Part shown: positions 29,686 to 43,200 of the stretch, one piece after another
How positions within the stretch are numbered: the stretch's first letter is position 1
Layout of the letters: every line of letters starts with the position of its first letter
Source of the DNA: Nannochloropsis salina CCMP1776
Lineage: Eukaryota > Sar > Eustigmatophyceae > Eustigmatales > Monodopsidaceae
NCBI GenBank assembly: GCA_004565275.1
Contig: SDOX01000159.1
Coordinates: forward strand, 3,002 to 67,001
Direction of reading: 5' to 3'
Length of the DNA: 64,000 nucleotides
The notes under the pieces: generated by a model
Told to the model about the DNA's origin: nothing
Seen by the model: only the letters and a program-made list of their open reading frames with translations
The model's database searches: none
Position numbers and translations under genes: made by a program

Positions 29686-30327
29686 GAGGAAAGGGCGAGA
29701 GGCCGAGGGGGGCAATGGGATGGAGTGACGGCCGAGGGGTTGGAGAAGGCGGGATGGCTGAGGGATGGGAGACAAAAGGCCCGCAGGGCTTGTGGTCTGG
29801 GAGGCGAAGAGAAAGAAACAAAAAGTTAGGACTCGTGTGGCGTCGGGCTGCTCAATCTATGGTATAGAGTTCTTTAGCTTGATAGCGGTCACTCAGTCAC
29901 TCGTGCTGGATGGGTCTGAATTATTGCCGTCTCAGAGTCGTTTGCGCACATGCATTACTTCTGCCCAGAGTCTCTGGGGCCCGGTCCTATGTCCTTTGCC
30001 GGAATCGCGCTCCTCCTCTCTCCCGAAGCTTCCCGTCACCTGCCCCATTCACTTCTCATCCGGGAGGCCCCGATGGGAAGAAGCCCTCCCCCCCCCCTCT
30101 CCTCTACCTAGATACAAAGCGCGCGCGGAGCGAGTGAGCCCACAGACCTCCAAGGCTATGTGACAGCGCACGCCCCCGCCCGCCCCATGCCAAATCTCAA
30201 TCTACCTCTCGCGCCCCCATACAGCCAATCTCGCAGTCGACGTCTTCCTCCCCCCCCGCCCTCTCTCCCGACCCGCCCTCGTCTCACCGCTGCCCCCCTG
30301 CTCCCCCGTTCACCCCCTTCCTCCCCG
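29686..30327. other. Convergent 3' intergenic region
   Basis: About 640 bp between the stops of the ATP synthase f-like gene (+) and the lactonase-like gene (-). No supported coding or RNA feature. Confidence 0.45.
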
Positions 30328-31939
30328 CTAGCTCAACCTGAAGGCGGCTATGGCATTGTTGCCCGACTCGCTCACAAACAGGACGCTGTTCTCCGCGTCC
30401 CACGCCATCGAGTCCGGGCGCTTCAAGCCCCCCTCGCCCCCAGCCCCCCCCACCGCCCCCAGATAGGCCAGCCGCCCCTCCAGCTCCTCCACCCTCAGAG
30501 CCACATGCACCAGATTCTCCTTTTCCACGCTCACCAACAGCAGCGGCCCCAGCACCGAATGCTGGACGGCCACGGCCGAGGAGTACGAGCCTTGGGTGGG
30601 GGGCACGTCCATGCCCCCCGGATTGAGCGCCGGGTCGATGACGGTGGTCAGCTGCCCATCTGACTCGCGCCGGAAGACCCAGACTAGGTTGATGCCTGTG
30701 AGGGGTGGGGGCACAGGTCGGGGGGTGAGCGTGGGGGCATGGTTTGTACGCGGGAGGAGGGACAGGGGGAGGGAAGGAGAGGGGGAAGACAGAGGGCGAG
30801 AGCCAAACGAACGCCGTACCGAAGGTGGCGGTGCAGTAGAGGAATTCACCGGAGGGTGCGAAGGAGGCGGAGGTGAGCAAGGCGGATCGGAAGGGCCCGG
30901 CCTCCTGCTTGAGCTCCAGCGCCCCGTCCGCAGCCACCGCGTAGACCATGATGGCGCTGGTGGAGATGGCGAAGTTGTCGCCGATGACGTACACGTGCTT
31001 GCCGTCCGGGGCCACGGCCAGGGTGGAGGGCAGGACCCGGGCGGCGGAGGTGTTGTAGATGTCGATGCTCTGGAGGAGGCTGAGGCGGCCCGAGTCGGGT
31101 TCGCGGTCGAAGACCAGGAGGTGGTGGTCCCGGTAGTAGCCTCCGGAGGACACGTAGATGAAGCGCCCGTCCGGCGAGGGCGCGACTGAGTTGGCGCCGA
31201 TCATGCCCTCCACGTCCACGATGCCTTTGCGCTGGTCAACGCGAAGCTGTTGGACAAGGGCGAGCTCCCCCCGCGCATCCCTCTTCAAGACCGTGATGCC
31301 GCCCACGCCCGGCATCATGCTCGTGCCCACCGCGTACACGTTCTCCTCGTCCGGCGACAGGGCCAGCGCGGTCAGGCCCGTGAAGTACTCGACCGTCTTC
31401 CCATTCCGGTCCACCACCCCGTTCTGCAGCTCCTGGATCTGCTCCATCGTCCCGCTCCCGGGGTCCACGCTGAAGGCCAGCAAGGCTTCCGCGGTCATCG
31501 CGTACAGGTTCTTCTGATTCCCGGCCAAGGCCAGCGGACCCGGACCTTTAGTCAAGGCGTGCTGGTGGAGAAAGGAGACGTCCAGGGTGGGGAGGGAGAT
31601 GCTGCCGTTGCCCCTTTCAGGGCTGCCGGGGATGTCCCCCGAGGCAAGTATCCGGTAGTCTGGTACTTCGACTGCGACTCCGGCGGTGCCCGCGGGAGAG
31701 TATATTGGTGGATCAGAATTTGGCATTATTGTCTCCCCGTGCCGACGAACGTGCTGTCGTTGCGGGGGGTTGCTCGTGCTCAACCCCCCTTCCTCAGCAC
31801 GCTTCCCTGTCTGTCCTCTTTCCCTCACCCCACCCTCTGCTGCAGCGTTGCAAGGCTTTGCAAGGCCATACAGTACAAGAGCTATCATTGTGGTCTTTAA
31901 TAAGCTCCATAATGGACGAGTTGGGCAATACTGTGTCAT
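30328..31939 (-). CDS. Lactonase-like beta-propeller protein, secreted or membrane-anchored
   Basis: Seven-bladed propeller of the 6-phosphogluconolactonase-like (Lactonase, PF10282) type. Exons 30820-31939 and 30328-30695 join in phase 1 (TTC G/GC ATC) to give about 495 aa. Repeated blade ends are visible: LTALALSPDEENVYAVG, VAPSPDGRFIYVSSGG, LAVAPDGKHVYVIGDN, SASFAPSGEFLYC and SMAWDAENSVLFVSES. A hydrophobic N-terminal stretch near MIALVLYGLAKPCNAAAE looks like a signal peptide, so the start may be 31888. The open frame extends further upstream to 32137, without homology. This fold includes enzymes and pure binding proteins; no catalytic role can be assigned from the sequence. Confidence 0.8.
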
Positions 31940-33149
31940 TAAAGCGGATGTCGTCCCTATAGTCGCAATATGGCCCGCTGGGGTAGGGGGCTGGAACAAT
32001 GCGAGCTCGCGGTCCTGCGAGTTGATTTGGACGTGCGTGTTCTCAACCCTGTGCAACGAGGGGATGAGGAAATTATTCATGGAAAAAGCGGATGGCTGCG
32101 TGCTATCATGACATGGGTTGGGAGGGACGGGCGTCATGTAATCGCCTGGCAGCGGCCTCCCCGTCTCGAGGCTCGGGGCAGCCGTGAGGAAGTTGGTACG
32201 TCACAGGCGGGGCAAGGTATATAGGGACGTATTCACAGTGCCCGTAAAGGCGCTACCGGTCAGCCGTGACAGACAACAAGCATGAGGAGCATTCAAAAAA
32301 TACCCAAATATCATGGTGTCACCTTTGTCGGACGGCGCACCGCAAATCTGGAAGAGTCCTGGCACAGACGGCAACGTCCGGGGCGGGGCGAGACATGCAG
32401 CACTGAGTCTGGCGAGGCGGCGAAAGGGAATGAACGTGGTCGGTCACTGAGGCAGTGGAGGGGCATCGCGAGGGGCTACACAGGTCAATAGTGAGGATGA
32501 AAGATCGCCTCTGCCGTGTCGCAAGATTTTTGATGGCTCGCTCCTTGTCCGTGAGGGACAGTTAAAAAGAAGAAATGAGAAAAGGGTGATAGACATTTCG
32601 AGCATGGTTAGAAGAAATAGAAGACAGCGGGTAGGGTTTTGTTCTTTGGCACGACCACAGAGGCTGAGACAGGAAACAAGACGTTGTGATCTTGAAAAAA
32701 TACGTCTTAGCGGGCGCGCAAGGGTCATGCATCTCAACACTGACACATTTGTCATTTAAGGCCCATTTCCGTGAGCGGTCGCTCTTCGTTTTTTTTTCCT
32801 GAGAGGGCCCGACTGCTTGAGAAGCACGCTATGCGGCCATCTAGTGGCCTCTGGCGCTGTTAAGGTCTACAGTCTCTGGATTTCGAGTTTGGCCCATGTC
32901 TTGTCGAAGCTGCAGCAGGCACCACACGGCAACTTCTTACAGCCGCCTTTTCTCGTCCTGCCCTATCAGCACAGGGAACATGCTGTCATCGATGCCGCGC
33001 AGTGCCGCGCAGGAAGGCCCACGTACTAGATGGGTTGGAGCTCCCGACCCGGCGTCTGTCGCGGCCAGAGGGTGGCGGTAGGGAAGGCCTGTATGAGAGG
33101 CGAGCATGAAGCTCCCAGCTTGCGGGGGTGTACCAGGGCAATTGCGTCC
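31940..33149. other. Intergenic region, no supported gene
   Basis: About 1.2 kb between the lactonase-like start and the methyltransferase stop. The minus-strand frame of the lactonase gene stays open to 32137. Beyond that only short frames without recognisable content occur. Confidence 0.4.
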
Positions 33150-34771
33150 TCACGCCGGCACTGCCCAGCGGCCCCACCACTCCCGACCTTGCCGGGGAGG
33201 GATGGAGTCCGTCACAGGCCCCGTGAGCTCCAAGCACGTGAATCCCCCCCCCCCCTCGCCATCCCCCTCCACTAGCAGGTGCCGGTAGAGGGCGGGCGTG
33301 ACCTCGAAGGGGGGCCCTTGCAGCCTGTCCAGGGCCTGGAGGGGCCTTTGGGGCTCAGAGACGGGGAAGATGAGGGTGATAAGCTGGCCTGTGGAGGGGC
33401 ATAGTGCAGGGGGAGGCGTCGTGAGTGGAAACGTCGGTGGGCGTGGAGGCCCTTGGGGGAGGGAGGGAGGGAGGGGAGGGGGTCGGCCGGTTGATCGCGC
33501 CTCGCGGGCAGGAGCCCCCATTCAGAACAGAGCAACGGCAACATTACAAGCACCACGCTAATACACACGCCGCTGCCCCCTCGCGCTCGGCTGCCTCCTC
33601 CACCTAGTCGTCGAGACTGGCTGAGGGCCGCGCCTCGGAGACAGGCGCGGGCGCACGACAAGGAAAGCCAGACCCCCTCCCCTCCTCCCTCCCTGCCTCT
33701 TTCCACCTGTTCCTGGCGTCAACAACTGCCGCATCTGCTCGGCCCACCGGATACGATCGCGGGGTGGAAGGGCGCATAAAAACTGTGTCAGGGTTAGGGG
33801 ATGGGGTCGGGGGGGGGGATCACGGAGGAGAGTGAGAGGCGCACCGTTCAGTCCGTCCCCCATGGCCCTGCCCAGCCACTCACCGTGTAGTCGAAAATCA
33901 GGTCGAAGGTTCCTGTCAGCTCGAAAAAGTCGTCCTCACGGTAGCTAAGCTTGCCCGCTCTCCCCCCTGCGGACCCCCTGCCCCGCCCCTCCTCCTCCCA
34001 CAACGCCCTTGCGCGGGCCACGGCGGTTGGCGCCAGATCCACGCCCAGGACGTCCCATCTTGCTTCAGCCAGAGCCATGCACTCGTATCCACTGCCCGAT
34101 CCCGGCACTAGGGCGCGACTGAGGCCGGGAGAGGGCGGCAGGATGGGGGAGTCTCGGCGTCGGAGGTGGTTGAGGAGAGGCGGCGCCGCACCTGGGGGGT
34201 CGATGGACGGGTAGGACCAAGCAGATAAGACGACGATTGTAAAGTGGGTAAATTGCTCTTACAGACCTCGCCCGGGGCGTACCTCGTGTGTCCCACGGGG
34301 TAGTACCTCGCCGCCAGGTCTCCTCCCAATCGTTGCCCGCTTGCGACAGGAAATATCTTCGCGAGAACTGAACCTGAATAAAAAAGAGGGTAAGTCGACC
34401 CATGACTGTACGATATGAGAGCCTTTACCCTGAAGAGAAAGCTCTTCTTTTTGTCGGCAACAGACTCCCAAGCCTGTGGGTATACCCCCCACTCGCCCTA
34501 CCTGAGGCCTCGACGGGTGACGAGGGGACGGAAGCACCGACAACTGCCTTGTCCCCAGTGGCGTGTCACATCCACCAGAGAGAGCGAGATTCACGGATTT
34601 GGGCGACGAAGGGGAGTGGGAACAGGACGAGAAGAAGACAGGAGCTTTGTGAGGCACAAAAGCGACGGGCTTGAGCCGGGGGGAGGTTAACATGCTGGCG
34701 GCTTTGAATTCCATAAACAAGGCTTGCAGCTGCAGGTAGGACTGCCCGAAACTCTGGTTGCAGCGCGTCAT
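33150..34771 (-). CDS. SAM-dependent methyltransferase, thiopurine/thiol (TPMT) family
   Basis: Five exons assembled by phase: 34502-34771, 34283-34373, 33884-34191, 33707-33782 and 33150-33388, giving 327 aa. Family landmarks: GNDWEETWRRGTTPWDTRG near the N-terminus, the SAM-binding GSGSGYECMALAEA with VLGVDLAP, FDLIFDYTFLCALPP, LLTPGTGQLITLIFPV, and the C-terminal PRQGREWWGRW. Such enzymes methylate thiols, thiocyanate or halides, and in marine algae some make methyl halides; the substrate here is unknown. The first exon (about 90 aa, Ser/Pro-rich) is less certain and may be a targeting region. Exon junctions in the core are unambiguous because each restores family motifs. Confidence 0.88.
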
Positions 34772-34962
34772 GAAGACAGAGCAAAGATTTTTGATTGAAA
34801 AGATATTGCTGTCAGGAAAGTGGGGCGAAAGTGCACTTTACCAAACGACGACCGATATTGCTTGGTCTGGTGTGAATGAGAAATATTCATCGCAACTTGC
34901 ACTCATGATAAAACACGTTCACTTTCATAGTTCGCTCAGAAACGCTATTTTCTGGCGGAACG
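34772..34962. promoter_or_regulatory. Short divergent promoter region
   Basis: Only about 190 bp separate the methyltransferase start (-) and the hydrolase-CYTH start (+), so a shared bidirectional promoter is likely. This is inferred from spacing only. Confidence 0.4.
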
Positions 34963-36747
34963 ATGCTTTGGCACCGTCGACGCGGATTTTTATATTTAAA
35001 GTCTTCCGTGCTGAATTTCTTTGTCGTCGCTCCGTGCTTTCTCATACCCCCCCTCGCCCTGCTGGCCTCCGCGTGGCAACCAAACTTTTCCTTCTGCGTG
35101 CGGGACACGGGCATTCGAAGGCTTTTTTTGGGAACCGCAGCGACATTACACGGTCTAAAATCCCCACATATGGTCACCGCCACCGTCGGACCGACATCTC
35201 CCCTCGCCTCTGCATCTTTCCCCTCCCTTGCTCCGTCGCCCGCGTCCCCCACCTCAGGGACTGCAGCTTCACAGCCAGGGGGAGATCCCATCGTCAAACG
35301 CGTGTATGCGTATGCTCATGGCTTCCTTTCCGATGAAAACTCTTTCAAAGGAAGGCACCTTCAACAATTTTTGGCATCCCGCAACGCGCACCTCCATCTG
35401 CTCAACCTGAATGGCGGCGTCGGGGAGGGGATGGGGGGGATCAGCTATTCTCGAGGCCTGGCTGCGATTCGAGCTCTGTACGACAAGGAAGGAGGACGAG
35501 AGGGAAACGTAAAGTTGACGCTGGTGGGATCAAGTTTGGGGGGGTACGTGGCGGCGCGTTTCGCAGAGCTGTATCCGGAGGCCGTGGAGAAGCTGGTTCT
35601 TTTCTGCCCGGGCTTCGACTTGCAGGCTCGATGGCCCCGACGACTGGGAGGGGCAGCTATGCGCGCATGGATGAAGGAAGGGCACCGGGACTTCGAGGCC
35701 CGCCAGGGGGTGGTGCGAGTGCCATGGAGCTTCATAGAGGACGGCTGCCAGCACCCTCCCTTTCCCTCTTACACCGCGCCTGCACTCATCATTCACGGCC
35801 TTCGAGACGAGGTAGTGCCGGTAGAGACGACAACCGTGAGCCTGCTGGAGCAGGCCGGAGGCCAACTGAAGGAGTGGACGCAGGTGGTGCTCGTGGACGA
35901 TGACCACGGCCTTACCCAGCCCGCCACCCTGGCTGTGGCCTCGGGCGCCATCCTGGACTTTCTACAGATCCCTGCGCCTGCGGGTGACCCTGACGAGAAT
36001 GGGGCGGGGGAGGAAGGGGAGGGGCAAGGCGCGGTTTCAGCTGCTGACCACATCGAGGTAGAGGCCAAGCTCGCCCTTCCCGAGGACCGCCGGGCACTGG
36101 AGGAGAGCATCCTGGCGGCGGGTGGAGAGCTGAAGTGCACCGTGATCATGACGGACATTTATTGGGACTTGGGTGGCGAGGCCTTCAGTTTGTCCAACGT
36201 CTGGTTGCGGCAGCGTTCGGGTGTGTGGGAGCTGAAGGTGCCTGCCGTGGAGGGCGAACGTCCCAACACCCAGACCATCGCTTGCTACCGGGAAATCAAT
36301 GACGTGAGGGACATCGCCACTTGGCTTGTCAATGCATTTCCTACCCAACTGGGTCGATTACACCACCTTCCATTGGCCAAGATGCTGGCCGCTGCCGGGG
36401 CTCATCCGATAGCCTCCTACACAACACGAAGGAGCAAGTTCGTGATCAGAACTACCGATGACGATAAAAAAAAGGGCAGCGATGAGGGGAGGAAATCACA
36501 AAGCCATAAACTTTGCGTTGATATTGACGAAACATCATTCGGCTTCGGATTGGTGGAAGTCGAGGAGCTTGTTGCAGGGCACGGCGACATACCCGCCGCG
36601 AAGGCCCGTATTCAGCACTGTGCCCATGAATTACTGGGACTGGCTGAGATAGACGACGTTGTCCGTGGCAAGTTGGAGCGATACATATTGCTTCATAACC
36701 CGGCGCATCATCAGCGGCTCGTAAGACAGGGTGTTTTCAAGAGTTGA
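34963..36747 (+). CDS. Fusion of alpha/beta hydrolase (YqiA-like) and CYTH/thiamine-triphosphatase domain
   Basis: A single exon of 594 aa joins two enzymes. Residues about 110-335 are an alpha/beta hydrolase of the YqiA/UPF0227 kind: AHGFLSDENSFKG, nucleophile elbow LVGSSLGGYVAARF (Ser191), LIIHGLRDEVVPV (Asp282) and VDDDHGL (His315). After an acidic linker, residues about 362-590 are a CYTH tunnel domain: signature EVEAK (E365-x-E367-x-K369), DIYWDL, VWLRQRSGVWELKVP, RRSKFVI and VDIDETSFGFGLVEVEELV. This most resembles thiamine triphosphatase. The N-terminus is hydrophobic and ends LASAWQP, an ASAF-like motif with Trp for Phe, so plastid import is plausible. All key residues appear intact in both halves. 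The joint substrate is unknown. Confidence 0.9.
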   Translation: MLWHRRRGFLYLKSSVLNFFVVAPCFLIPPLALLASAWQPNFSFCVRDTGIRRLFLGTAATLHGLKSPHMVTATVGPTSPLASASFPSLAPSPASPTSGTAASQPGGDPIVKRVYAYAHGFLSDENSFKGRHLQQFLASRNAHLHLLNLNGGVGEGMGGISYSRGLAAIRALYDKEGGREGNVKLTLVGSSLGGYVAARFAELYPEAVEKLVLFCPGFDLQARWPRRLGGAAMRAWMKEGHRDFEARQGVVRVPWSFIEDGCQHPPFPSYTAPALIIHGLRDEVVPVETTTVSLLEQAGGQLKEWTQVVLVDDDHGLTQPATLAVASGAILDFLQIPAPAGDPDENGAGEEGEGQGAVSAADHIEVEAKLALPEDRRALEESILAAGGELKCTVIMTDIYWDLGGEAFSLSNVWLRQRSGVWELKVPAVEGERPNTQTIACYREINDVRDIATWLVNAFPTQLGRLHHLPLAKMLAAAGAHPIASYTTRRSKFVIRTTDDDKKKGSDEGRKSQSHKLCVDIDETSFGFGLVEVEELVAGHGDIPAAKARIQHCAHELLGLAEIDDVVRGKLERYILLHNPAHHQRLVRQGVFKS

Positions 36748-37015
36748 GCGTCATGTCAAAGAGCGACAGCTATTACAAAAGCACAAAATTTTGAGCAAAA
36801 GGAATCATGTGAATCGGATTTTGGTTTTCCGAGGTTCGAAAGAAGCATAAGATGACTAGCTTCACATTTCTTTCGGACGCCCTGTGCACGCAGCGGGTGA
36901 TCTGACTTAACATTGGGTATATTCCAGCAGGCCAACCTCCCGGCTAGGACTGGTATCAAGCAAGTGTTGAACGCGGGCCCGTCTCGAGTCCGCCTGATTT
37001 TTCCCACGCTTACCT
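36748..37015. other. Intergenic spacer
   Basis: About 270 bp between two plus-strand genes; no feature recognised. Confidence 0.4.
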
Positions 37016-38482
37016 TTGCTTTTTTGGCGGTTGCAAGTACGCAGGAAGCCTTGTTGCAGTCCAATGCGGCTAAGATGCCTCGTAGTTCTAGGCATGCGCT
37101 TGAGTTTGGCCGTGGGATTCGTCTACCCCCCGACTCATGGCGGCGCGTTCGGGAGGTACAGCCCCAGCGAGGAGATGCCCGGCAATGTAAAAGATCGTGC
37201 AGAAAGAGCACGGTACCCAATCAACACCTTCGTCTCAAGCCAAATATCTAGCCATGAAGCCTTGCGCTTGCAGGAAATGTCTAGAAACTCTCCAGAGGGC
37301 GTGTTTCTGGATTTAACTTCCTGCGGCTGGGGCCTACTTAGCGTGTCAGGAGAGGATAGGCTGCGCTTTTTGCACAATCAACTCACGAATTCGTTCGCAA
37401 ACGCGCAAGTTGGTGATGTTATAGAATCATCTTACACGTCTTCGGTGGGAAGGGCCATAGACTTGGTGACTGCGTACGTACTGGAGGATGAGGTCCTGCT
37501 TTTGTCCTCACCACCACGGCACGAGCACGTCTTCGAGTCCTTCCACAAGTATATCTTCCCCTTAGACAGGTAAGGAAGCGACGTTGTCGGACCTTTACCC
37601 CCGGTTATCCCAGGGAGCTATCCATGGTGCCTGACCTCGTTGACATTGCCTCTCGGCCATCTTTCCAGGGTCCAGGTACACAAGAAGCAATTGCAGGGTT
37701 TTTTCATATACATGGGCCCAGAGGCGGCCTTGGCGAAGCTCTCCAATCTGTTGGAACACAAGGTCCCGCCTCCACAAGCTCATTGTTGCCATGCCTTACC
37801 TTCAGGCCTGGTGGTGGCCGAGGGGTCTGGCCTGGCCCTTCCTGGCCTCACCATGCTCGACGTGAGCGGTTCCTCGGGCGTGGCGGCCGCCGTCTCCAGC
37901 GCGGACATTCGTCTGGGGGGTGGAAAGGAGTGGGAGGCTCTCCGCATCCTGCAAGGGAGACCGTTTCCCGATAAGGAACTAACGCTGGAGGTCACGCCGT
38001 TGGAGGCGGGGTTGTGGCACACCGTGGATCCCGAGAAGGGGTGCTACCTGGGACAAGAGACTCTGGCCAAGCAGGCCAACAACAAGGGGGAGCGGCAGAG
38101 ACTCTTCGCCGTGAGAGGAAAGGGCTTAGAGGAGAAGCAACGGATCCTGGACTCGGCGGGTGGTCGGTCCGGGGTCGTGACCTCCTGTCTGAGCGATGAG
38201 GGGCGCGCGGGTCTGGCCTATATTCGGAAGACGGTGGCCCACCCCACCACTGCCAGCTTGTTCAACGAGGGAGGCACCGAGCCGCTGCAGGTCTCGGACA
38301 TTCCCTACGCGACGAGGGAGGCGACCACAAAGAAACAAGGCTCGACAGTGACACAGGAGATTGGACAGGCTGCGGAAAATACAAGTGCTGCGGACAAAGC
38401 TGTCGAGGCGGAACGTAAAGCTAAGAAGCTAGAGGAGATGAAAAAACGTCTTGAAGAATTTCAGAGAAAAAATAAAAAGTAA
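37016..38482 (+). CDS. Folate-binding YgfZ/IBA57-like protein, probably organellar
   Basis: GcvT-related protein of COG0354, which supports assembly or repair of Fe-S enzymes using tetrahydrofolate. Exons 37016-37569 and 37669-38482 join in phase 2 (GAC AG/G GTC) to give 455 aa. The signature is PEKGCYLGQETLAKQ. Other landmarks are DLTSCGWGLLSVSGEDRLRFLHNQLTN (begins about residue 103) and LEVTPLEAGLW. The start has several Met choices; the N-terminus MRLSLAVGFVYPP is signal-like with a GF step, so plastid or mitochondrial import is likely. A charged Lys/Glu tail (KKLEEMKKRLEEF) with coiled-coil character is an unusual extension. Plants have both a mitochondrial IBA57 and a plastid homologue; which one this is cannot be decided. 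Confidence 0.88.
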
Positions 38483-39105
38483 GAGAATTATGAGACTTGT
38501 GCAAGCGAGCATATCCCTTGTGCTGTCCTTCCTACTCGAAGCTCACTGCAGATTCCCACTCCAAAGAGCTACGAGGAAATCTTGTGTTTTGAGTTTGGGA
38601 TTGACGTGATTATTTTGTATGAGCTTTTATTGTCAAAAGATCACTTCTACACTTTCAAAGCATAAATTGCTGCTCGACATCATGTCGCGGGCTCTCGGGT
38701 CGGCCGGATTTGTAAGACGTGTGGACTGGGGCCAGACACCCAGTGCTGCCCATTCCAGACATTCTCTTTCGCTCTATGAAATCAGAGGCTTTTTAAATAG
38801 ATCACGCCATCGTGTGGCTTGTGACCGACCACAGAGCGCAGTAATCGCGCGAAATATGATCAAAGAGTCGGCGAAGAACACAACATGATGTATCCCCTAT
38901 CAAGCAATGCCCTACTCGGCCACCATGCTCCGAGGCGATGCCAGATTTATTTTCTCGCATCTTATTCGTTCGTTAATATCGTACTTTTTTTTTAAAAGTC
39001 CCTGCTGCAGGATGCACGGCTCCCTCCCTATTCGCGCCGTATTTGATGGTCATCTCATCCCAAAATCAACACGAACCCCGCCCGTGCACTCCCCGCCATC
39101 CCTTT
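38483..39105. other. Convergent 3' intergenic region
   Basis: About 620 bp, moderately AT-rich with a T-run near 38985. No supported gene. Confidence 0.4.
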
Positions 39106-39975
39106 CTAGTTATGATCATCTGGCCAGTCACGCACATAGTTTGTCTCGAAGCGCACTTCCCTCACCCCCGCTATCTTCAAGTCCTCGATGAGCAACAGCT
39201 TCGTCCAGGCCTCCGCTCCGATCAGGTTCCTGACGTTTCCACTGTACAGGAAGCGCCAGATCCCGTCCTCGGTGGAGACCAGACGCAAGGATGCCCCGAA
39301 CATGTTCTCGATCTTCCCAAGCTGCTCCATGACGGCGGGGTCCACGATGCGGTAGCGCTGCGCAGGCTGGGGGCGCCAGTCGGGCAGGTCGATCTCGAAG
39401 CCATCAACGCTCCAGGGGGCTATCACGTCCTCGCTCTGACCCATCAGGTTGAATTTCTGCTCTCCAGTGTATATATCTCTCGCCCGAGACCCGTCCAAAA
39501 GCGCTTCGTCGAAGAAGGGAGCAGGGGCCTGCTCTTTGACTTTCCGCTTCCCTTTTTTTACCTTTTGGGGGGCCGCGGATGGTTTGCCTGAGTCTGCCGA
39601 TGAGGAGGTGGCAGAGGACGGCATGGGAGGAGGACTGGACTTGTTGCTGCTTGCTCCTCGCTTGCTCTTGGGCCCCGAAGCTTTCTTTTCTCCAGATGCC
39701 GCTTTTTTTCCCTCTCTGCTTTTCTCCGCGCCATCTTCCCCTTGAGAAACTGCCGGTAAAACGCCTAGCGCCTTCCTCCGTCCCCCCCTAACACCTAAAC
39801 ATCTACTGCTGCTGCTGCTCTTGAGAGTGAATCCACACGAAAGTAAAGCGTTTTCCTTCTGAAGAATGCTTCGTGGCCTACATTTTATTACAAATGCGGA
39901 CGTGGGCGCTGAATTTAGAAACAGGAACAGAGCTCCTGTGGTTTCCGAGTTGTTCAGGATAATGTTTTGGGACAT
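39106..39975 (-). CDS. Unknown protein with plastid-type N-terminus
   Basis: Not recognised. The frame is open from 40092, but the Met at 39975 starts a plausible signal: MSQNIILNN...LFLFLNSAPTSAFVIKC, where TSAF is a clear plastid cleavage motif. That gives 289 aa. Residues about 65-155 are Lys/Ser/Pro-rich and disordered. The C-terminal 135 residues are compact and look folded, with APWSVDGFEIDLPDW, MEQLGKIENMFGASLRLV, GIWRFLYSGNVRNL and VREVRFETNYVRDW. The alternating hydrophobic pattern suggests a small alpha-beta domain. It is intronless. The divergent RAD17 gene starts about 240 bp away. A plastid stroma or membrane-associated role is inferred from targeting only. Confidence 0.72.
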   Translation of the reverse strand: MSQNIILNNSETTGALFLFLNSAPTSAFVIKCRPRSILQKENALLSCGFTLKSSSSSRCLGVRGGRRKALGVLPAVSQGEDGAEKSREGKKAASGEKKASGPKSKRGASSNKSSPPPMPSSATSSSADSGKPSAAPQKVKKGKRKVKEQAPAPFFDEALLDGSRARDIYTGEQKFNLMGQSEDVIAPWSVDGFEIDLPDWRPQPAQRYRIVDPAVMEQLGKIENMFGASLRLVSTEDGIWRFLYSGNVRNLIGAEAWTKLLLIEDLKIAGVREVRFETNYVRDWPDDHN

Positions 39976-40217
39976 AAACGTACTCGTACGTGTCCTACAA
40001 CATGCAATCAATCTGTCAAAATTCCCTGCGTGCGCAAGTGGGTGACCTTGATCGCGCATGGGAACTGGAAGCATACGATAGTCTGCGGACACGGACGTGC
40101 CTTAACGCCCCGACCAATTCCCTCGATTACATAATGTTCCGAAAAATGACTCCACGTATCTCGAGGTTTTTCTTGCCTCTGCGGAAGATAAACCCTGCGT
40201 TAGGATAGGTCTGCGCC

Positions 40218-43200
40218 ATGACTTACCTAAAGATAGTGCAGCCACCGCTGATGGACGCCGACATCTCTTCCTATCGTGCTGCTCGCACCCAAAGTCTTGA
40301 GGTCTTCGGTGATCCTTTGTCGTCATGCGGCTATGCAATCTATCAAAACAAGATGCGAGAGAAGGCAAGTCTTAGAATGGAGGTAAGTTGTCGCGATTCA
40401 ACTGGCGCCGAAGTTGCCCTCTCTCGCCCCAGTCGCTCGCTCGCCGCCTGCAAGCCCAGCTTCCTCCGACCCGCCCTTAATGCATGCGACCTTACACAAG
40501 GAAAACGACAGGAACTGCTATCGAGTCGTAAGGCCGACTGAAAATAGCATCACACATTTTGACACAGTGGTCGGGGCGATGGTAGCAGCTGATGTCATCG
40601 AAATTTCCTCCTCCGAAGCCTCCACCTCCTCGTCGGACGAGGGGGAGGAAGCTGAAAGGGAGGGGGCGGACTCGGCGCTCCAGCCTCACGGGCAAAAACG
40701 GCGGGTCCGGTTGCGGCGGCCAAATCTTTCAAAAGCTATTGAAAATATTGAAGTCAAGAAGAATGATGCCATGGCCCAAAAGTCGAGAAAACGTTCAAGA
40801 CAGCGGCCCTCTCTTTCCTCTTGCAGTAGCAGCGACGAGGAAAAGACGAAAAGCAATCGGCACGCGTATGATGCAGGGGAAAACACTGATACTTGTGCAG
40901 AAGAATGCATCAAATCAAGTGTGCGGCGGTCGAACTTTTCCTCATGCGGTAAGGACAGTGGTAACGACATGGAGGGGGAGGATGAAGAGCAAGAGGAGGA
41001 GGAGGAGGTTGATGAGCAGGCGGGGTATGAAAAAATGGAGCCCGGTGGAAAAGGCATAAGACAAACTGTACGGCAAGGAAAGAAACGCATTTCAGTCGCG
41101 CTGAGAAGCGCGTCAAAGAGATCTCAGAGCCACGCGAAGAGCCCGGCGGGAGTCTCGGACGCCGGAAGCCTAGACGAGGAGGTGGGGCCCCCGCGGCGTC
41201 GGTCCCGGACCGCCATGACAGGTACCCCGCCTGCCTCCTCCTCCCCCGCTGCCGATACCCCAAGCCTCTTCCCATCTTCTACCAAGAAAGTTCCTAAAAT
41301 GGAGGCGCATGCCCGCCCTAGCGGGAATCATGTCAACGCTTTGCGCCTCGTGTTTGGCAAAACGCCACGGCCTGCTCTAGATAAAGCCTCCAGCAAACAA
41401 GCCCCTTCCAGACATCCACGCCATATCAAGGAGGAGCCCGCAGGAGGCAAATCAGGGGCTTTGGGTGCGGGCTCTCTGTGGACCGAGAAACACCGACCCC
41501 GCAAGGCAGCCGACCTCTCCATCCCGCCCAAGAAAGTGCGCGAAGTCCAGCAATGGCTGGAGGGAGCCCTTGGTCTGGTGTGTGAGGAAAGCGGCTTGCG
41601 TCCGGGCACGGATAAAGGGGGGGGCCAGAAGCTGCTGGTAGTGAGGGGGCCAGCTGGAGTGGGCAAGTCGGCTATGGTGCAGGTCCTAGCGGAGGCGTTG
41701 GAGCTGCCATTGCTACGGTGGACGGAAGAGACCCCCTGGGAGAGCCGCGAGGACGCGAAGAGAAAAAAGTGGGAGGGAGATGAGATGGAGATGGGCGGAG
41801 GTGGGGGGCAGTACGTCTCGCAGGCGGAGGGGTTCCGAGCCTTCGTGCGCGGCGCGGCCTATGGACCCCTGGAGGTGGCGCCATCGGCAAAGGCGGGCCT
41901 CGATCGATCCAGGGATGCGGGTGACCCGAATGCCTGCGGTAATGGGGCAGATCCGGGGGCAGAGGGTCGTCGTCAGGGCCCAAAAGGAGAGCGGAAGGGG
42001 GAAGACGTGCGCCGGGCGCTGCTTGTGATGGAGGAGGTACCTTACCATGCGACTGGGCGGGCCGCCGCCCATTTCCAAGCGGCTCTCACGAGCTTCCTGG
42101 CCGCGTCGGTACATCCTGCGGTGGTTATCTTCACGGAGGAGCACGAGGACAGGGCGGGCTCGGGCGCCCTGGAGCGCTTGCTGACCAGGCCATTGCTGCA
42201 GGCGAAGGGCGTGCGCCAGATCCACATAAACCCCGCCACCGACGGTAGGGAGGGCTGTTGGGAGGGGCGTGGAAGCCTGTTAAAGACTGAAAAGGCCGGG
42301 CGATAGACATACCAGGAGTCGTCTTCATCGACTTTCGCCTCCCGACACAGGAGGTGTCGCCACTCGTATCTCAGCAATGCACTCACGCTCTCTGCCTTCC
42401 TTTCCCCCTTTTACCCTTCCCACGCCTGTACTCCTGGGGCGCCAGCCAACATGCGCAGAATCCTGACGCACATCGCCTTGGCCGAGGGCCTGGGCCCGTC
42501 CAGGTCCGAGGTGGAGGCTATCGTTGCCTGCAGCCGGGGAGACCTCCGGCATGCCATCCTCACCCTCCAGTTGCAGCTTCAAGCGAGCCGGGCTGCCCCT
42601 AACGCTCCCCCACGGGCCCTGGCCAGGTCCGATGCTTCAGCTTCCTCCTCGCACCTGTTGCGACAATGCGCGGGGGGGCGAATGGGGGGTGGGGGCCGAG
42701 GGGAAGAGGACAAGGGGGGAGAGGGAAGGGGAGGAAGGAGAGTGGGGAGAAGGAGGGAGGGAGAGGAGGCGGAGAGGAAGGACACGTACATGTCCAGTTT
42801 CCACGCACTCGGCAAGGTCTTGCACGCGAAACGCTTGCCGGAGTCGGACGAGTCCTGGAAAGGGGAGGGCGATCCGCGCGGAAGACTATCTTTCGTGCCC
42901 GAGGAAGTGCTCAAGAGGTGCGAGATGGAGGCGGAGGGACTCTCCGCTTTCGTCCAGACCCACGCCCTCGCCCTCTTCGGAGACGTGGAGGAGCTGGCGG
43001 AGGCGATGGCATTCTTTGCCGACGCAGACGTGCTGCTGGCGCGTGTTTATAGCACGGCATTCGTGAGTGCGATATGATGGAGGGGGGAGGGGAAGCCTTC
43101 CGTGGAAGCTTTCCTTCTAATGACCGAGCATTGATCTTTTCCCAGAATTTCTGTCCTGCCCGATAGTATCATAGTCTTCGTCTCCCCTCACCCACCTCGA

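Follow-up and report, generated by a model that had tools for sequence, protein, structure and literature searches.

Does a single algal gene encode both a serine hydrolase and a CYTH-type triphosphatase, and, if so, do the two domains share one substrate, and in which compartment do they work? The question is raised by one frame in the 64,000-nucleotide stretch of Nannochloropsis salina CCMP1776 DNA analysed here (the window).

Gene structure of the hydrolase-CYTH fusion

The frame and the segment that connects its two domains are as follows:
34963..36747, + strand: hydrolase-CYTH fusion open reading frame, 594 aa plus stop, single exon
35974..36045, + strand: acidic Gly-rich linker, residues 338-361, without in-frame ATG or stop; pLDDT below 50 at residues 349-375

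Read from the DNA sequence, the fusion is one intronless frame of 594 codons plus a stop; an in-frame stop lies upstream at 34909, and the other two forward frames hold 22 and 15 stops. By base composition alone, the chance that 594 codons stay open from a fixed start is about 1e-9. Met occurs only at residues 1, 70, 157, 233, 237, 396, and 474 and is thus absent between residues 237 and 396; therefore, no in-frame ATG can begin a CYTH product that retains the ExExK motif (residues 365-369). The uninterrupted one-exon, one-polypeptide fusion described in a first-pass annotation of this DNA is borne out by the continuous frame, the distribution of stops, and the Met positions, and the frame also runs unbroken through the stop-free linker, where an intron or a frame error would have parted the domains. 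A single polypeptide appears to be by far the simplest reading of this frame.

Three Pfam models matched the predicted protein above their cut-offs: Hydrolase_4 (41.4 bits vs. a curated cut-off of 27; E = 1.3e-10), UPF0227 (PF05728; 39.5 bits vs. 21; E = 7.1e-10, residues 115-319), and CYTH (PF01928; 33.1 bits vs. a gathering cut-off of 23.2; E = 6.1e-8, residues 363-568). In a six-frame, exon-by-exon search of the alga's own genome (26.5 Mb, 103 contigs), the whole protein matched one place. PF01928 and PF05728 each gave one match at E ≤ 1, both at the fusion gene, in a profile search of the same six-frame, exon-by-exon design, which genes split by introns could escape.

The divergent upstream neighbour (33848-34108, - strand) is a frame matching thiopurine S-methyltransferase (PF05724, 6.7e-8). 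The downstream gene (37016-38482, + strand) has an aminomethyltransferase folate-binding domain (GCV_T, 1.8e-6) in 37016-37573, and its second frame (37640-38482, + strand), which has no Pfam match, resembles by eye an IBA57/GcvT C-terminal region (GCYLGQE); an intron may join the two frames.

The CYTH domain

The features of the C-terminal part of the protein are:
36046..36726, + strand: CYTH domain, residues 362-588, predicted thiamine-triphosphatase (ThTPase) type (Pfam, PDB matches, alignment, tree)
36055..36069, + strand: EVEAK, the ExExK motif, residues 365-369 (alignment with mouse and human ThTPase)
36202..36216, + strand: WLRQR, the WxRxR ThTPase signature, residues 414-418, W414 equivalent to Trp53 (alignments; rule from excerpts of PMC8233210)
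36556..36564, + strand: EVE, the ExE metal motif, residues 532-534 (three-row alignment)
36670..36678, + strand: K570-L571-E572; K570 equivalent to the mammalian Lys, E572 at mouse Met195/human Ile

At E ≤ 1, the whole protein matched 53 PDB sequences, five of which are CYTH proteins, all of them mammalian ThTPases (4e-14 to 2e-12); the other matches are named esterases, lipases, and other hydrolases. A three-row alignment with the mouse and human enzymes gave identities of 33% and 32%, respectively, across the CYTH domain. As in the mammalian 25-kDa THTPA (2jmu, 5a64, 5a65, 3bhd, 3tvl), counterparts of Glu7, Glu9, Lys11, Tyr39, Trp53, Arg55, Arg57, Lys65, Tyr79, Glu81, Arg125, the ExE pair, and Lys193 are kept in this alignment; the catalytic Tyr39, Lys65, and ExE correspond to Y400, K425, and E532/E534, and Tyr79 corresponds to Y442. 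In a larger alignment with 63 bacterial sequences, three of these places fall out of register with the mammalian residues, namely Tyr79 (gapped), Glu81, and, in ExE, the second Glu; the assignment of these three relies on the three-row alignment.

The Trp53 counterpart ties the domain to ThTPases in particular. In the available text of a study that clustered 38,246 CYTH (PF01928) sequences, WxRxR identifies ThTPases, which form their own cluster among the single-domain length range (PMC8233210), and in the ThTP-bound mouse enzyme, as described in excerpts of PMC4641920, Trp-53 and Met-195 make stacking contacts with the thiazole ring in a pocket that also includes Tyr-79. We sampled 64 CYTH loci of bacteria (5 in a set of 10 genomes, 29 more in one of 60, and 30 in one of 80, the last two samples comprising only best-scoring matches and two genomes, G009 and G001, each appearing in two samples), of which 63 could be aligned. 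None of these 63 has an aromatic residue at the Trp53 place, which is occupied by Ala (22), Leu (11), Val (11), Ser (7), Thr (6), Gly (4), Met (1), or Ile (1); a separate motif scan of the bacterial CYTH loci on both strands likewise found no Trp there. In a tree of the 63 bacterial domains with mouse, human, and the fusion protein, the latter three grouped together at 100/99; this tree has long branches and covers only bacterial domains, the fusion protein, and two mammalian ThTPases, which means that other eukaryotic triphosphatases could also fall into the group.

Two substitutions count against a ThTPase: Glu572 stands in place of the Met195 that lines the thiamine pocket in mouse (Ile in human), and Val448 in place of human Glu85. 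A change at residue 85 is also carried by the weak pig ThTPase. The protein further differs from mammalian THTPA by the hydrolase and targeting-like segment in front of the CYTH domain and by insertions at about residues 438-441 and 494-503. For the CYTH part, in which an eight-stranded tunnel fold was sought, the AlphaFold model is of low confidence (block means 26-73). The absence of any CYTH entry among the 50 rows listed by Foldseek and by VIA-align carries no weight either way.

Two other CYTH identities were rejected. Class IV adenylyl cyclases (CyaB) are marked, according to excerpts of PMC8233210, by HF four residues before ExExK and by Ala in place of the second Glu of ExE; here, SAADHI precedes EVEAK and the ExE motif is EVE, and because no HF motif stands before ExExK, the domain is not class IV cyclase-like. 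Plant TTM1/2, described in the same text as the only other subfamily with W/YxRxR, lack ExExK and bear a phosphoribulokinase-type domain (PMC8233210), whereas the fusion protein has ExExK and an alpha/beta hydrolase as partner. YgiF (CYTH-CHAD) and TTM1/2 resemble the fusion in joining CYTH to a second domain but differ from it in what that domain is. The intact ExExK signature reported in the first-pass annotation is present as EVEAK, and its thiamine-triphosphatase-like assignment holds up on the PDB matches, WLRQR, the 100/99 grouping, and the lack of Trp in all 63 bacterial domains. The domain is, as predicted from its sequence, specifically ThTPase-like and a candidate enzyme.

The hydrolase domain

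Upstream of the linker, the following features were identified:
35290..35973, + strand: alpha/beta hydrolase domain, residues 110-337, UPF0227/ABHD10-like
35533..35535, + strand: Ser191 nucleophile, in GSSLGG
35806..35808, + strand: Asp282 of the triad, in RDE
35905..35907, + strand: His315 of the triad, in DDHG

All three residues of the Ser191-Asp282-His315 triad, which the first reading had called complete, occupy invariant columns in a 33-row alignment of the fusion protein with bacterial relatives, fragments among them. The label "YqiA-type" given to this domain fits only loosely: the UPF0227 score is above its cut-off and the triad is the same, but the NCBIfam YqiA equivalog model (NF008291) scored 20.5 bits, far below its cut-off of 252. 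All 11 members of an alignment of hydrolase relatives match UPF0227. Bacterial UPF0227 (YqiA-YcfP-like) hydrolases share the triad and up to 45% identity (residues 104-291) with the fusion protein; unlike it, the best relatives among them stand alone, in frames of about 215-245 aa, without CYTH in the flanks read.

An AlphaFold model, built from the fusion protein and 32 relatives out of 61 fetched loci, is confident across the hydrolase part, where 20 of 23 ten-residue blocks (residues 111-340) have a mean pLDDT of at least 90 and the other three have means of 81-87; the structure prediction that had been proposed as a check of this active site was thus obtained with block means of 81 or more. 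The best PDB sequence match of the domain is ABHD10, an acyl-glucuronide esterase (6ny9, mouse; E = 2e-8), and Foldseek also placed ABHD10 first, with Klebsiella YqiA (9bi7; 18% identity) at rank 37. In VIA-align, feruloyl esterases and lipases reached similar or higher Z scores (25.3 for 7wwh vs. 22.5 for 6ny9). ABHD10, the mitochondrial mycophenolic acid acyl-glucuronide esterase, shares GSSLGG and an R-[VI]-P-[WY]-S-F-I segment with the fusion hydrolase; its identity in structure alignments is 22-23%, and the matched ABHD10 chain has no CYTH domain. ABHD10 also has a thioesterase role, and Ser-Asp-His hydrolases of the (thio)esterase type attack carbonyl (thio)esters. The domain is predicted to be a UPF0227/ABHD10-like serine (thio)esterase.

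N-terminus and plastid targeting

Three segments precede or overlap the start of the mature protein predicted for a plastid location:
34963..35073, + strand: signal-peptide-like segment, residues 1-37, with HRRR, a hydrophobic core at about residues 16-36, and an ASA end (hydropathy)
35065..35082, + strand: ASA|WQP, residues 35-40, an ASAFAP-like cleavage motif (ASAFind-accepted +1 residue; antenna N-termini of the same genome for comparison)
35074..35289, + strand: transit-peptide-like segment, residues 38-109, with 18 Ser/Thr and 2 Asp/Glu in 72 residues

The signal-like N-terminus with LASAWQP was found again at residues 34-40, with Trp at +1 after ASA and Pro at +3; the ASAFind rule, in the available text of PMC4329603, accepts F, W, Y, or L at +1. 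The binomial probability of so few acidic residues (2 of 72) in residues 38-109 is 0.003. When residues 2-110 were shuffled 100,000 times, the motif arose by itself in 2.0% and together with a hydrophobic core in 0.06%, figures to be read with both motif and threshold having been chosen after the sequence was seen. The alga is photosynthetic: an exon-by-exon search of its genome gave 34 matches to the light-harvesting family. In the four of these that were read by eye, the N-terminus is a short signal with STA|F, ASA|F, AAA|F, or (a second time) STA|F at its end, indicating that the alga uses an [AS][ATS]A|F motif, with Phe where the fusion protein has Trp. Several matches to this family are clustered at C6:829578-834272, where two oppositely oriented ones have equal scores.

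The plastid location claimed earlier is therefore upheld as to a plausible targeting signal (hydrophobic core, ASA|W, and a Ser/Thr-rich segment low in acidic residues) and weakened by the +1 residue, which may be Trp but is usually Phe and is Phe in all four antenna proteins read. The fusion protein is probably sent to a plastid of the complex type.

Relatives in prokaryotes, plasmids, and viruses

The nearest prokaryotic hydrolase relatives among the matches listed come from Acidobacteria, Myxococcales-type, Deltaproteobacteria, and Leptospiraceae records, comprising 61 loci among the matches listed (at least 598 stretches; best 38% at 1e-36). The nearest bacterial relative found is 45% identical over residues 104-291 (L133, G353:C227:10126-10668) and belongs to a genome of the same phylum as that of an Acidobacteria MAG locus (L004); this resemblance makes gene transfer possible. 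Within flanks of up to 4 kb per side, none of the 61 bacterial loci listed has a CYTH frame at E ≤ 10 next to its hydrolase, and no common function was seen among ten neighbouring frames from five of the bacterial hydrolase loci. Across 297 genomes of the phylum of L004 (47 with a match), with mostly four candidates scored per genome, no whole-protein match extended beyond residue 359.

A contig scan with the alignment of the fusion, mouse, and human CYTH domains confirmed none of 32 pattern matches as a prokaryotic ThTPase-type CYTH. The same alignment matched 3 of 282 genomes of one bacterial phylum, that of genome G003, with partial matches (E = 0.002-0.01); this search is weak, with at most 11 candidates scored per genome, and it missed a CYTH domain that PF01928 detects in G003. 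Four scans of viral contigs confirmed no relative, tblastn with the CYTH domain found no match in plasmids or phages at E ≤ 0.01, and the hydrolase domain had no plasmid match at 1e-5. At laxer limits, the hydrolase matched 14 phage records (best 4e-3) and, at E ≤ 10, 184 plasmid records; the matches, 30 of which were listed for the plasmids, are weak, partial, and generic.

Proposed function and alternative readings

The reading that we find best overall, and to which we would give roughly an even chance, is that a nuclear gene encodes a bifunctional protein, probably plastid-sent, whose CYTH part is a ThTPase and whose hydrolase acts separately. ThTP would enter the CYTH tunnel, where R416, R418, K425, and R490 would hold its triphosphate together with metals bound at E365/E367 and E532/E534, and its thiazole ring would stack on W414; a metal-activated water would then take off the gamma-phosphate to leave thiamine diphosphate (ThDP) plus Pi. 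This would rid the plastid of ThTP formed in the light and restore the coenzyme ThDP, and the hydrolase domain would work on its own as a serine (thio)esterase on some acyl substrate. The most likely role of the fusion is to tether two activities or send them to the same place, not to hand one substrate from domain to domain. In favour of this reading, thiamine pyrophosphokinase is present in the genome of this alga; against it, no TPP riboswitch was found in 30000-42000, where three Rfam matches at E ≤ 5 fall under their gathering scores.

A general inorganic tripolyphosphatase (or NTPase), which is likely the ancestral activity of the family, would retain Trp53 without ThTP specificity, a reading that we consider somewhat unlikely. 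In the available text of the literature, most of the CYTH enzymes that a review names as characterised from bacteria, archaea, and plants are tripolyphosphatases (PMC8615392), and plant TTM1/2 bear W/YxRxR yet prefer PPi (PMC8233210); the changes of Met195 to Glu and Glu85 to Val point the same way. The genome also encodes, elsewhere, a polyphosphate polymerase VTC domain (C93:177865-178599, 3.6e-55), so inorganic tripolyphosphatase stays the main rival. Against this reading, every CYTH chain of the PDB that matches at E ≤ 1 is a ThTPase, none of the 63 bacterial domains has the Trp, ThTPases cluster apart in the published network as excerpted (PMC8233210), and TTM1/2 lack the ExExK that the fusion CYTH has.

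Distinctly less probable is a CYTH domain serving as a ligand sensor, which would bind ThTP (or PPPi), turn over little of it, and regulate the attached hydrolase. Such a role would suit the substitutions at positions 85 and 195, the linker modelled at low confidence between the domains, and the report, in the available part of a 2021 review, that the fish and pig ThTPase orthologues are practically inactive (PMC8615392). The known catalytic residues are nonetheless retained, Tyr39, Lys65, and the ExE motif among them. We also know of no precedent for the regulation of a serine hydrolase by ThTP.

We regard as very unlikely that both domains act in turn on one substrate, such as an S- or O-acylated thiamine phosphate that would be deacylated before its phosphate is removed. 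The joining of the domains in one chain and the acyl-glucuronide esterase activity of the nearest solved hydrolase would favour this reading, and the first-pass annotation had suggested two-step processing of a phosphorylated ester. That suggestion finds no support, because a hydrolase of this type cuts carbonyl (thio)esters, which ThTP and polyphosphate, by what is known of these compounds, do not contain; to our knowledge, no acyl-thiamine triphosphate has been described, and CYTH frames are missing from the flanks of the 61 bacterial hydrolase loci listed. That the domains belong to different genes or transcripts, or were joined by chance in a faulty assembly, is the least credible explanation, rejected on a continuous frame of 594 codons that base composition would hardly leave open and on a Met-free interval with a stop-free linker between the domains.

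Novelty and significance

Both domains are of known families. Among the papers listed in the literature searched, the scope of which takes in few subscription journals, we found no report of a hydrolase-CYTH pairing and none of a ThTPase-type CYTH outside animals; excerpts of one of them, PMC7283521, describe CYTH-like domains in diatom Vtc3 and Vtc4. The fusion may already be present, unremarked, in annotated algal genomes. A bolder reading, which we hold to be rather doubtful, is that this protein would be the first ThTPase outside animals, housed in the plastid and fused to a serine hydrolase, forming a light-linked switch in which the removal of ThTP, as it is produced by the chloroplast ATP synthase, is coupled to plastid (thio)ester deacylation.

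The 2021 review, as far as its available text extends, knows no specific ThTPase from microorganisms, fungi, or plants, although it describes Arabidopsis plastids as making ThTP (PMC8615392), and a candidate plastid ThTPase is therefore of real interest. If confirmed, such an enzyme in the plastid of an alga would close the gap left in that text. An alga whose small genome combines a ThTPase signature and a plastid-like signal in one intronless, single-copy gene would allow the question to be tested directly, and the fusion partner would, if this reading is true, point to a candidate process linked to ThTP.
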